Shown here: piece by piece, positions 10,499-15,510 of the stretch
Position numbering within the stretch: position 1 is the stretch's first letter
Layout: every line of letters begins with the position of its first letter
Source: Acidimicrobiales bacterium
Lineage (GTDB): Bacteria; Actinomycetota; Acidimicrobiia; Acidimicrobiales; MedAcidi-G1
Direction: 5' to 3'
DNA: 46,613 nucleotides
Assembly (NCBI GenBank): GCA_029242745.1
Contig: JAQWTI010000055.1
Coordinates: 1-46,613 of the forward strand
Notes under the pieces: model-generated
Told to the model about the DNA's origin: nothing
The model's input: the letters and a program-made list of their open reading frames with translations, nothing else
Databases searched by the model: none
Position numbers and translations under genes: made by a program

Positions 10499-10974
10499 AG
10501 TTCAGAACTACTGCGCAGACGCAGGTCAGCCCATCCACCGGGGGTGACCCCGTCGACTCGGACGCGCCGCGCTGTGAAGCGCCAAAGGCCGTCCACGGGC
10601 CGATAACTGTCCTGATAACGGCCCCAGTGGTCAACGCCACCGCTGCTCATGACCGTGAAGTAAGCCTGCCCGTCGGCTCTCCCGTTTGACAGATCGGATC
10701 CGTTGACTTTGATTGCGAGTGTCGCTGTGTGGTGCTGCAGAAACAGAGGAGAAGGTTTGTCGACTTGGCTGGCAGTGATCGAGTCGCGGGTTTTGGTAAA
10801 GATGGTCCGGATCTGCTCTACACCGGTGTAAATAAGCCCATCACCCACATCCATTACTGCTTCTTGGGCGAACAGGTCCATTACCTCATCGAATTTACCC
10901 TTGTCGCCCAACACGTTGTACGAGGCGACAAGATCGCGGATCTGTTCATGGGCTTCGAGTTCCCAAGCTTTCAC
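10495..10974 (-). CDS. SnoaL/NTF2-like protein B
   Basis: About 159 residues from GTG 10974, chosen because GGAAGGAG lies at the right distance upstream; the frame is open for 28 further codons but those lack a ribosome-binding site and would almost reach the divergent gene. The fold signature is like that of its neighbour: EAHEQIRDLVASYNVLGDKGKFDEVMDLF, TGVEQIRTIF, and the block RADGQAYFTVMSS with WGRYQDSYRPVDGLWRF. The two are diverged paralogues and may form a heterodimer. It is first in a coupled set with protein A and aceK. Enzymatic function not assigned. Confidence 0.8.
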   Translation of the reverse strand: MKAWELEAHEQIRDLVASYNVLGDKGKFDEVMDLFAQEAVMDVGDGLIYTGVEQIRTIFTKTRDSITASQVDKPSPLFLQHHTATLAIKVNGSDLSNGRADGQAYFTVMSSGGVDHWGRYQDSYRPVDGLWRFTARRVRVDGVTPGGWADLRLRSSSEL

Positions 10975-11017
10975 GCGGCTCCTTCCGGGTATCGGTACCC
11001 CACTAGCGTGCCCCAAC

Positions 11018-12202
11018 ATGGACGATCTACACGACATCCGCAACCGATTTCCTGGCATTAACGATCAGTGGGCACGATTCGACGGCCCTGCCGGTACCCA
11101 AGTAGTGGACGCGGCTATTGAGGCCGCTGCCGATTGGCAGCGCAGCGGTAGTAACGCCAACTCTCATGGTGCATTCGCTGCAGCTGGCGCATGCGATGCA
11201 CTTGTCGAGGAGACCAGCACGGTGATGGGGCGGCTGCTGGGTGCAGATCCGGCAGGAATGGTGTTTGGCCCCAGCACGACCGCCAACATGATGGCCCTCA
11301 CCCGGGCCATCGGCAGGGGCCTTGAGCCCGGGGACGAGATCATCTGTACCACGCTAGATCACGACTCAAATGTCTGGCCCTGGATGTTGATGGCCGCTGA
11401 TGCTGGGGCGATTGTTCGCATGGCCTCCTTTGATTCTGGGAATGCACGCCTGGAGGTCAGCGCCGTAACCTCGCTGATCGGACCAGCTACCCGCTGGGTT
11501 GCGGTGACTGGGGCGTCTAACGCTGTGGGAACCATCCCAGATGTAACCGCTATCACATCGGCAGCCCACGCAGCCGATGCCCGGGTGGTGGTCGACGGTG
11601 TTCATCTAACGCCACACCACGCTGTGGACGTGACGGCTATGGGTTGCGACGTTTACACGACGTCGTCGTATAAGTGGTATGGGCCACACGCCGGGATCAT
11701 GTGGGTGGAGCCTGGCTTACTTGATGCGCTAGAGCCCTACAACGTGCGCCCGGCACCAAACCATGGTCCAGGGCGTTTCCAGTACGGCACACCTTCTTGG
11801 GAGGCGCTTGTCGGAATCAGGGCGGCGGCCGACTTCCTGCTGGACGTGGGACTTGACGCCATTACGGCGTTCGAGGCTGACCGGTTCGCCCGGCTGTTAA
11901 ATGGGTTGCATGCCATTAAAGGAGTGCGAGTAGTCGGACCACAAGATCACGCCAACCGGGCACCGACCTTGATGTTCGAGGTAGCTGGATGTTCCCCGGC
12001 GCTAGTGGCGCAGCAATTAGCCGAATCCCACATCGCTGTATGGAATGGTCACAACTATGCCGTCGAAGCCATGGCACCCCTTGGTCTGGACATCGAGGCC
12101 GGCGCAGTCAGGGCTGGAATCAGCATGTACACCAGCGATGCTGATGTAGACCGTTTACTTGAGGCCGTAGCCGACCTCGTTGATTCGGCTTCTGCTTCGT
12201 GA
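11018..12202 (+). CDS. PLP aminotransferase class V, cysteine desulfurase-like (VC1184 family)
   Basis: 394 residues from ATG 11018. The N-terminus RFPGINDQWARFDGPAGTQVV, then NSHGAF, IICTTLDHDSNVWPW, the PLP-binding DGVHLTPHHAVDV and the lysine segment TSSYKWYGPHAGIMW mark the cysteine desulfurase-like family typified by VC1184. Members resemble NifS and isopenicillin-N epimerase, but the reaction of this subgroup is not established. A persulfide Cys is not obvious near the usual C-terminal position. The ORF extends 39 codons upstream, but that part overlaps the divergent gene and is not family-like. Its stop overlaps the SDR start (GTGA). Confidence 0.88.
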   Translation: MDDLHDIRNRFPGINDQWARFDGPAGTQVVDAAIEAAADWQRSGSNANSHGAFAAAGACDALVEETSTVMGRLLGADPAGMVFGPSTTANMMALTRAIGRGLEPGDEIICTTLDHDSNVWPWMLMAADAGAIVRMASFDSGNARLEVSAVTSLIGPATRWVAVTGASNAVGTIPDVTAITSAAHAADARVVVDGVHLTPHHAVDVTAMGCDVYTTSSYKWYGPHAGIMWVEPGLLDALEPYNVRPAPNHGPGRFQYGTPSWEALVGIRAAADFLLDVGLDAITAFEADRFARLLNGLHAIKGVRVVGPQDHANRAPTLMFEVAGCSPALVAQQLAESHIAVWNGHNYAVEAMAPLGLDIEAGAVRAGISMYTSDADVDRLLEAVADLVDSASAS

Positions 12203-14363: not shown

Positions 14364-14427
14364 GCGGACGTGGCGTACTGTGGGTGGGATGCTAACCATC
14401 CGATAACGAAGAGGAGGGGGTGATGAG

Positions 14428-15510
14428 ATGGTGGAGACTCGCCGGCTGACTCAGTTCAGTCACGGTGCTGGTTGAGGTTGCAAGCTCGCCGCTGGCGAGT
14501 TGGCGCACGTGGTGCGCCGCCTGGCTCCCGTGAACAATCCAGACCTGTTGGTCGGCTGTGGTACTGGTGACGACGCTGCAGTTTGGCGTCTTGATGATCA
14601 TCGTGCCCTGGTGGTGACGGCCGACTTCATCACCCCAGTTGTCGATGATGCCCGGATGTGGGGTCGCGTAGCGGCGGCCAACTCGGTGTCTGACGTGTAT
14701 GCCATGGGTGGCCGGCCGCTACTGGCTCTGAACCTTGTGGGTTGGAACAGTGCAGAGTTGTCGACCGACCTTCTGGCAGATGTCTTACTCGGAGCACAGG
14801 ACATCGCTGATGCAGGCGGTTTCGTCATTGCGGGAGGCCATACCGTTGACGACCCGGAACCTAAATTCGGACTTGCAGTGGTTGGAGAGGCTGATCCCAG
14901 CCGTCTCCTGACCAACGCTGGTTTCAGGGTCGGTGATGTGCTGGTGCTGACCAAGCCGCTAGGTGTAGGGGTAGTAACTACGGCTATAAAGCGAGGTGAC
15001 GCCCCCGTTGAGGTAGTAGAGGCCGCTCTGGCCTCAATGACGCAACTAAATGCTGAGGCGGCAATAATTGCTCTAGAAAGTGGCGCGTCTGGCGGTACCG
15101 ATGTCACTGGCTTTGGTCTGCTGGGCCACCTAGGCCGGGCGGCGGTTGAATCAGGCGTGGACGCCATTATCGAGGTGGCGGAGGTTCCCCTCCTGCCCGG
15201 GGCCCGCGTTCTAGCCGAGTCAGGTGCCGTGCCGGGAGGCAGTCGTCGCAACTTGGCGTGGGTCGAAGGGGGAACTAGGAAAAGTCTTAATCGCGGCTTA
15301 GACCGGGGCGGATTCGACGAATTGGATGTTTTGCTGATGGCTGACGCTCAGACCTCCGGTGGCCTCGTGTTTGGGGTCTCTCCAGAGCGGGTCGATGATG
15401 CGCTTGCTGCCTTGGCGTCCACGGGACATACCGCGGCAGCGGTTGGGTACGTGGTCGCCGGTCGAAATGTTGATGACAGTGGCGGTGCCAAGCGCCTCCA
15501 GCTGGTCTAG
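14428..15510 (+). CDS. selD: selenophosphate synthase SelD, itself a selenoprotein (in-frame UGA)
   Basis: 360 residues when the TGA at 14473-14475 is read as selenocysteine. Upstream of that codon the same frame gives MVETRRLTQFSHGAG, then Sec16, GCK and LAAGELAHVVRRL. This is the conserved SelD N-terminus, in which the Sec position is Cys17 of the E. coli enzyme and the following Lys is essential. The start ATG has a strong GAGGAGG ribosome-binding site. The remainder is typical: VGCGTGDDAAVW, NSVSDVYAMGGRPLLALN, AGGHTVDDPEPKFGLAVVGE, GTDVTGFGLLGHL and DAQTSGGLVFGV. The enzyme makes selenophosphate from selenide and ATP. A conventional ORF would start at TTG 14500 and lack the active site. 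Confidence 0.93.
14483..14501 (+). promoter_or_regulatory. bSECIS-like hairpin for Sec insertion in selD
   Basis: Starting seven bases after the in-frame TGA, an 8-bp stem (AGCTCGCC with GGCGAGTT, one G-U pair) closes a three-base loop GCT. The loop begins with G, 15 bases past the TGA. Bacterial SECIS elements bind SelB through an apical loop with a G in its first positions at about this distance. The fold is read by eye. Confidence 0.75.

Follow-up and report, generated by a model that had tools for sequence, protein, structure and literature searches.

This analysis indicates that the selD gene of the window (the whole stretch of 46,613 nucleotides of Acidimicrobiales DNA analysed here) very probably encodes a selenoprotein, with selenocysteine (Sec) at an in-frame UGA, and that the element which would recode this UGA is likely the second of two tandem hairpins found downstream of it. 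We are confident in the overall reading, built on comparative sequence data, in which catalytic Sec would be inserted at UGA 14473-14475 by SelB and Sec-tRNA-Sec, with SelB on the distal hairpin and the proximal hairpin acting as a spacer or pause element. The features concerned are as follows.

14411..14417, + strand: GAGGAGG, likely ribosome-binding site of selD, 10 nt 5' of the ATG (from the sequence).
14428..15510, + strand: selD, selenophosphate synthetase, 360 aa with Sec16, stop included (translation with TGA read as U, and TIGR00476).
14473..14475, + strand: in-frame TGA, very probably the Sec codon, at the position of E. coli SelD Cys17 (alignment and recurrence in relatives).
14483..14501, + strand: hairpin I, +8 to +26 after the UGA, 8 bp, loop GCU (fold and covariation).
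14500..14502, + strand: TTG, first start codon past the TGA in the standard ORF list, spanning the boundary between hairpins I and II.
14502..14518, + strand: hairpin II, +27 to +43 after the UGA, 7 bp, loop GUG (+34 to +36), likely bSECIS (covariation and published model).

The selD frame opens at ATG 14428 and its sole TGA is codon 16; read with TGA as U, the protein begins with MVETRRLTQFSHGAG-U-GCK... and its stop ends at 15510. This product matched the NCBIfam SelD equivalog TIGR00476 with 349.8 bits (cut-off 125), as well as 3u0o (selenide, water dikinase; E = 1.2e-70), which we take to be the SelD of E. coli. In this alignment, U16 fell on Cys17 and K19 on Lys20, thus providing the catalytic Cys/Sec and Lys. 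Indeed, the initial annotation of this DNA, made from the sequence alone, had placed a TGA at the E. coli Cys17 position, followed by GCK with its Lys, and a GAGGAGG before ATG 14428, all of which were found. It had also anticipated that standard annotation would truncate the active site, in line with the standard ORF list, where the selD frame starts from TTG 14500, with 336 aa and 24 residues lost, including the active site.

Comparison of relatives indicates that the two tandem mRNA hairpins are under selection for pairing. The main alignment comprised 89 ungapped Sec segments starting from the UGA (74 in-order genomes and 15 named loci), 86 of which were distinct. Within hairpins I and II taken together, 90.1% of the cells were paired and 100 cells had changed on both sides, which none of 500 shuffles reached, and pairing fell to 31.6-41.6% when the partner strand was slid by 1-3 columns, the relatedness of the rows being incompletely corrected in both of these controls. 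The independent Cys-SelD control and the synonymous redraws pointed in the same direction, that of pairing selection. One of the five covariation measures, that of how many pairs contain a double change, was not clearly above the shuffles, since it was reached by 55/500 of them for hairpin I and by 241/500 for hairpin II. Among 5000 synonymous redraws that kept the protein, the fully paired fraction was 0.05 for hairpin I, 0.02 for hairpin II and 0.0002 for both, and the MFE of the 46-nt segment (-23.3, versus a redraw mean of -13.3, SD 2.8) was reached by a fraction of 0.001 of 1000 redraws. The comparative evidence is much stronger than that of the single-sequence fold: the 60 nt folded from the window were unexceptional with respect to dinucleotide shuffles (z = -0.66), 46 of 200 folding as well.

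Hairpin II is the one that carries the conserved loop. Considered alone, it showed 93.7% of cells paired and 47 cells changed on both sides (0/500 shuffles for either measure). Positions G34, U35, C31, A32 and U38 were invariant in all 86 distinct Sec sequences, G39 was present in 85 of them, and positions +37 to +39 read NTG in 85/86. At least 6 of its 7 pairs were formed in 82 of the 86 distinct Sec rows and fewer in the other four, versus 3/37 in-order Cys rows and 3/65 other Cys rows; in 200 synonymous redraws, this number had a mean of 12.8 and a maximum of 21 of 86. The in-order Cys rows stem from 37 of the 47 genomes with no TGA in selD; among the other ten, G068 holds a fragment devoid of the catalytic region.

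The published bSECIS model specifies a loop N1-G-[G/U]-N-N2, a stem of 4-16 bp and a spacing of 16-37 nt, in the part of the source that describes it (PMC13188914). We accordingly tested for a loop of 3-9 nt, a stem of 4-16 bp, a G within the first two loop positions, 16-37 nt and an MFE of at most -7.5. Hairpin II displayed a loop GUG, or CGUGG with an N1-N2 pair, a stem of 7-8 bp, 33 nt from UGA to loop and -11.4 kcal/mol for 17 nt; at +34, its loop thus approaches the upper limit of the 16-37 nt allowed. When the published constraints were applied to the window, hairpin II was the sole strong candidate (-12.3 kcal/mol), the next different hairpin reaching -2.7. It is likely the bSECIS that SelB binds, a binding inferred because the loop is invariant and the stem covaries. 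The codon at +34 encoded Val in 86/86 distinct Sec rows and in 2/37 in-order Cys rows, where Leu was the commonest (29/37), which suggests that RNA structure has shaped the protein sequence.

Hairpin I (AGCTCGCC-GCT-GGCGAGTT, -10.8 kcal/mol) also appears to be under selection, more weakly. Considered alone, it showed 86.9% of cells paired and 53 cells changed on both sides (0/500 shuffles for either measure), and it formed a mean of 6.95 of its 8 pairs in Sec rows, higher than in in-order Cys rows (5.62), other Cys rows (4.00) and synonymous redraws (5.46). Such conservation and covariation mean that it may play a direct role in recoding. Its stem is conserved and its loop is not, and it probably serves as a modulator or spacer, SelB more likely binding hairpin II.

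Sec-SelDs elsewhere in the phylum help to place these two hairpins. selD was detected at E <= 1e-40 in 243 of 396 genomes of the phylum, with a TGA in many among the matches listed, best first; out of a larger number of TGA rows in this list, 60 further TGA-selD starts, one of them from the same order, were hand-picked and spread over families. To class a row, we required an uninterrupted stem at a threshold of -4 kcal/mol and, in the loop, a G with G or U as the next base. Outside the order, this gave 30 proximal rows, 21 distal rows, 4 rows carrying both elements and 4 carrying neither (L265, L267, L280, L299) out of 59; the 75 in-order rows comprised 65 distal, 8 both and 2 neither, and the 15 named rows 11 distal, 2 both and 2 neither. 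The "both" calls rested on a loop G at +14, nearer than the published spacing, in 6/8 in-order and 2/4 phylum cases, and at least two genes clearly had both elements (L251 and L301, the same genes as L328 and L324). In proximal rows, G18 was followed by G or U in 28/30, partly by construction. Hairpin II also has a CA..UG clamp, on which the classes did not depend; it was present in 2/30 proximal rows, and clamp and G-U occurred together in 73/73 distinct in-order rows of any class and in 25/25 distal or both rows elsewhere. Taken at the level of aligned sequences, the recoding signal thus appears to occupy two positions in one gene family, with an apical G at +18 or at +34.

The two classes also differ in stem register, the proximal hairpin pairing inwards from 12-26 and, in distal genes, hairpin I from 8-26, so that hairpin I is not simply the old proximal element. 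The proximal register, tried on the distal set, gave 48.8% of cells paired. In the 29 proximal rows aligned (all but L247, which is near L246), 90.8% of the proximal cells were paired versus 34.5% in the hairpin II register, with no sign of hairpin II; double changes in the proximal stem were thin, with 8 cells at one pair. Distal-type selD was also found in Chloroflexota and Gemmatimonadota MAGs (L070 and L065), where descent, transfer or binning error may each account for it.

A SelD tree was built from 103 of the 151 mapped loci (the 48 left out being Cys rows), with the hairpin-coding residues removed; it is a quick, unrooted tree with SH-aLRT support only, on which the direction of change is a matter of inference. 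The closest named relative by SelD identity was an Acidimicrobiales MAG (L061, 76%), and the marine actinobacterium MedAcidi-G2B (L049, 68% identity) clustered with it and with the window's family. Twelve of 14 proximal rows fell in one starred clade, together with one Cys row and one unclassified row. Distal versus all other labels required 14 changes, versus a shuffled mean of 34.7, and starred branches force at least 9; the distal label is thus clustered on this tree, but not of one plain origin. Part of these changes corresponds to Cys rows nested among distal rows. Separately, the Cys-SelDs L025, L029, L037, L058 and L059, two of them from Pseudonocardia, were located inside the in-order distal-type Sec-SelD clade, and such nesting makes a loss of Sec, with transfer, possible.

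The assignment of the SelB site to hairpin II has to be weighed against two other uses of the same RNA. Hairpins I and II may form one bipartite bSECIS, of which SelB would read the distal loop and hairpin I would be an essential part. Both stems covary in the same genes and abut with no spare base, hairpin I ending at 14501, one base short of the start of hairpin II, and both co-occur in distal-type genes elsewhere in the phylum, where 22/25 formed at least 6/8 hairpin I pairs. However, the TGA was kept in 9 of 73 distinct in-order rows with fewer than 6/8 hairpin I pairs, and the hairpin I loop has no conserved G, so that we regard an essential hairpin I as rather doubtful. It is improbable that, as the initial annotation would have it, hairpin I is itself the bSECIS, bound by SelB, in which case hairpin II would be otherwise used. 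Its description was accurate as regards the 8-bp stem, the loop GCT and the G lying 15 nt from the UGA; the stem covaries, and many other Sec-SelDs of the phylum have their hairpin in the proximal position. In epsilon-proteobacteria, too, a common 5/6-bp hairpin located a few nt after the TGA was reported for selenoprotein genes including SelD, in passages which sound like our proximal type (PMC4607533). The function assigned to hairpin I was not supported, however: its loop is CCN in 81/86 distinct Sec sequences and starts with G in 4/86, in the window C comes after its G, whereas the apical G should be conserved and most often precede G or U, its spacing is 1 nt short of the published 16 nt, and its register is unlike that of the proximal hairpin of other lineages. 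The invariant G-U is borne by hairpin II, which fits the published constraints; hairpin I was rejected as bSECIS on its loop and spacing, despite its conserved stem.

Decoding of the UGA as Sec requires a complete machinery, and this was found in the window's genome. The draft genome to which the window belongs, as contig 11, measures 2.44 Mb (55 contigs, 94.7% complete), and selA, selB, selC and selD were all detected in it. SelA scored 328.5 bits; SelB scored 265.1 bits over model positions 2-340 of 581 (cut-off 242.25), with SelB winged-helix and SelB beta-barrel domains further along the same protein; and selA adjoins selB on contig 46. The tRNA-Sec scored 67.5 bits (gathering 47). This model's cut-off was passed by 5/14 control genomes, while 2 of these 14 controls had SelA matches, so that the score alone is no proof; a second line of evidence came from ARAGORN, which called a SeC tRNA with anticodon UCA (tca). 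The only selD of the genome is that of the window, with 1 TGA. The initial annotation had inferred SelA, SelB and tRNA-Sec and had named their absence from a complete genome as an outcome that would speak against it; all three were present.

The TGA was also recurrent among relatives. The order was sampled with 198 genomes, 121 with selD over the cut-off, 74 of them with one TGA in the match and 47 with none. selA exceeded its cut-off in 71/74 genomes with TGA-selD, 42/47 of those lacking the TGA and 5/77 of those with no selD over the cut-off, G021 being scored positive on a 22-position match of 24 bits. The three TGA genomes devoid of selA (G050, G063, G125) hold a tRNA-Sec at 65.8-67.3 bits, and their missing selA is therefore probably due to incomplete assemblies. 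In tblastn searches of plasmids, 174 records were found, all below 60% identity. An in-frame UGA at the Cys of homologues, kept in relatives, is what is expected of a bacterial selenoprotein, in line with the proposal of the initial annotation, which we consider very probably correct in view of the machinery and the recurrence of the TGA in the order.

The residues around Sec varied among these proteins. The Cys of UGCK was replaced by Gly, Ala or Ser in 18/74 in-order Sec-SelDs (L030, L131, L136, L141-L143, L145, L151, L153, L159, L167, L169-L171, L173, L174, L176 and L177), and a Cys beside Sec is thus not required. Four in-order genomes (L207-L210) displayed long SelD frames (523-737 aa) with a CGGCGAK motif, perhaps of the Ndh-SelD fusion type with CxxC, which a passage of PMC2398784 describes from marine samples.

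These data bear on three further readings of the UGA. The residue being known from sequence alone, the UGA could in principle be read as another amino acid, by near-cognate readthrough or a changed code; this is very unlikely in view of the tRNA-Sec, SelA and SelB, of the restriction of UGA to the catalytic position and of the codon present there in the 191 mapped loci (TGA 89, TGC 62, TGT 40), and a changed code was rejected on these comparative grounds. Translation from TTG 14500 into a short SelD with no active-site loop corresponds to the mechanical ORF call, but a good ribosome-binding site and a conserved N-terminus lie upstream, this TTG straddles the hairpin boundary, and catalytic Sec16 and Lys19 would go, which makes it scarcely believable. 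A sequencing error, a risk raised in the initial annotation, or a dead gene, with TGA for TGC in one assembly, might be suspected in a draft of 55 contigs, but this is ruled out for practical purposes by the same TGA in 74 in-order genomes including the window's own, by the single-contig genomes G134 and G176, which combine Sec-SelD, selA and tRNA-Sec, and by the conserved RNA structure.

The possibility that SelD might be the only selenoprotein of this genome was not upheld, since a SelW-like gene (Rdx family, L244:1492-1764) also carries one in-frame TGA, in a CVPU motif, and is thus a second candidate. As in selD, a hairpin lies downstream of its TGA; the apical loop is CGUGA, and the uninterrupted stem is weak (-6.4 kcal/mol). 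Unlike that of selD, its apical G is at +19, with no intervening hairpin. It is presumably read by the same SelB. A standard call would split its frame at residue 13. A whole-genome search with a loop-motif pattern gave no enrichment (38 matches versus 42 in the reversed control); among the 30 matches taken as loci, L242 alone had a suitably spaced upstream TGA in a long frame, and it looked like chance. This search was a poor test, since the SelD and SelW of the genome fail the pattern themselves. Rfam at E <= 0.5 gave no SECIS family at the selD or SelW locus, and selenouridine synthase (TIGR03167) had no match in this 94.7% complete genome, E. coli being positive as a control.

Neither of the two Fe4S4-molybdopterin matches of the genome had a TGA within the match. 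This domain does not reach the Sec site of formate dehydrogenase. One of the frames concerned stays open for 948 aa and the other stops directly after the domain, and consequently no Sec formate dehydrogenase was seen in them. At L129:805-1665, NuoG/formate dehydrogenase-like N-terminal domains, named by eye, were noted in a frame that ends just past the Fe4S4 motif; next to it is a NuoF-like gene, and the frame is followed, on the opposite strand, by a methyltransferase-like one, both also named by eye.

Two genes upstream of selD, the window encodes a cysteine desulfurase-like class-V aminotransferase (10901-12202; TIGR01976, 358.3 bits, cut-off 352.35). In L032, L044, L048 and L049, a homologue was the first match met upstream of selD, and in L061 one lies in the window's gene order; tblastn at E 1e-6 found none in the other 38 of the 43 loci L019-L061, for which in-order flanks covered about 1.5 kb only. 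Such a gene was named near orphan selDs in a passage of PMC5029168, and a role as selenium donor for SelD is possible.

From a mechanistic point of view, SelB charged with Sec-tRNA-Sec would bind the G-U loop (+34/+35) of hairpin II and deliver Sec at the UGA, and hairpin I would have been retained because it slows the ribosome, or because it makes the 26 nt from the UGA to the SelB site shorter or more ordered. Because the apical G is at +19 in the SelW-like gene and at +34 in selD of the same genome, one SelB would have to serve both distances. The 15-nt difference is smaller than the 19 nt of hairpin I, which suggests that this hairpin may compact the spacer. A ribosome with the UGA in its A site would probably have the lower stem of hairpin I inside its mRNA channel and may melt it, which weakens the spacer idea. 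Production of SelD should vary with the selenium available, since the selenium donor from which its own Sec is built is the product of SelD itself. A tentative scenario, which we regard as possible without leaning towards it, is that the Sec signal has moved during evolution: the proximal hairpin would be read in some lineages and the distal one in others, hairpin I would be a new spacer in another register, genes with two signal hairpins look like intermediates, and one SelB would read both +19 and +34.

The occurrence of two signal positions in one family offers a natural experiment on the distance at which a SelB-binding hairpin may lie from the UGA and on what may intervene. It should be of use in bSECIS searches, by allowing several hairpins per gene and a G as far as +34, in the annotation of truncated selD genes and in the design of Sec-protein expression.

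Compared with known systems, the common hairpin II sequences (GCA-GGUCC-UGC) resemble the apical part of the E. coli fdhF SECIS (GCA-GGUC-UGC). The latter forms one hairpin only, the apical G of which is at about +19, whereas that of the window is at +34, behind hairpin I. Sec-SelD itself is well established (PMC1794560, PMC4561486, PMC13188914), and the statement of the initial annotation that it occurs in several lineages agrees with this literature, which extends to Actinobacteria: in parts of the 2006 study, SelD is listed among the selenoproteins of Symbiobacterium, and that of Rubrobacter appears as a selenoprotein in a table of losses in sister organisms (PMC1794560). A bSECIS of SelD is shown in a supplement to Mariotti et al. 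2015 (PMC4561486). Among the papers searched, none joining selenocysteine, SelD and Acidimicrob was found, and the titles, abstract openings or passages on bacterial SECIS position and tandem stem-loops described no shift of the element within SelD. The window shares with known Sec-SelDs the UGA at the catalytic Cys17 position, the conserved Lys and the full Sec machinery. Its hairpin II agrees with the published bSECIS consensus in loop, stem and spacing, and differs from it by an apical G close to the upper limit and by a separate covarying hairpin in between; a subset of genes is stated, in the part of that source concerned, to have elements outside the model (PMC13188914). Sec at the SelD UGA being already known, what seems new is the location of the likely recoding hairpin, which fits the bSECIS model: many relatives have theirs one hairpin closer to the UGA, whereas here another conserved hairpin comes first and the apical G is at +34 instead of the +18 of many other Sec-SelDs of the phylum.
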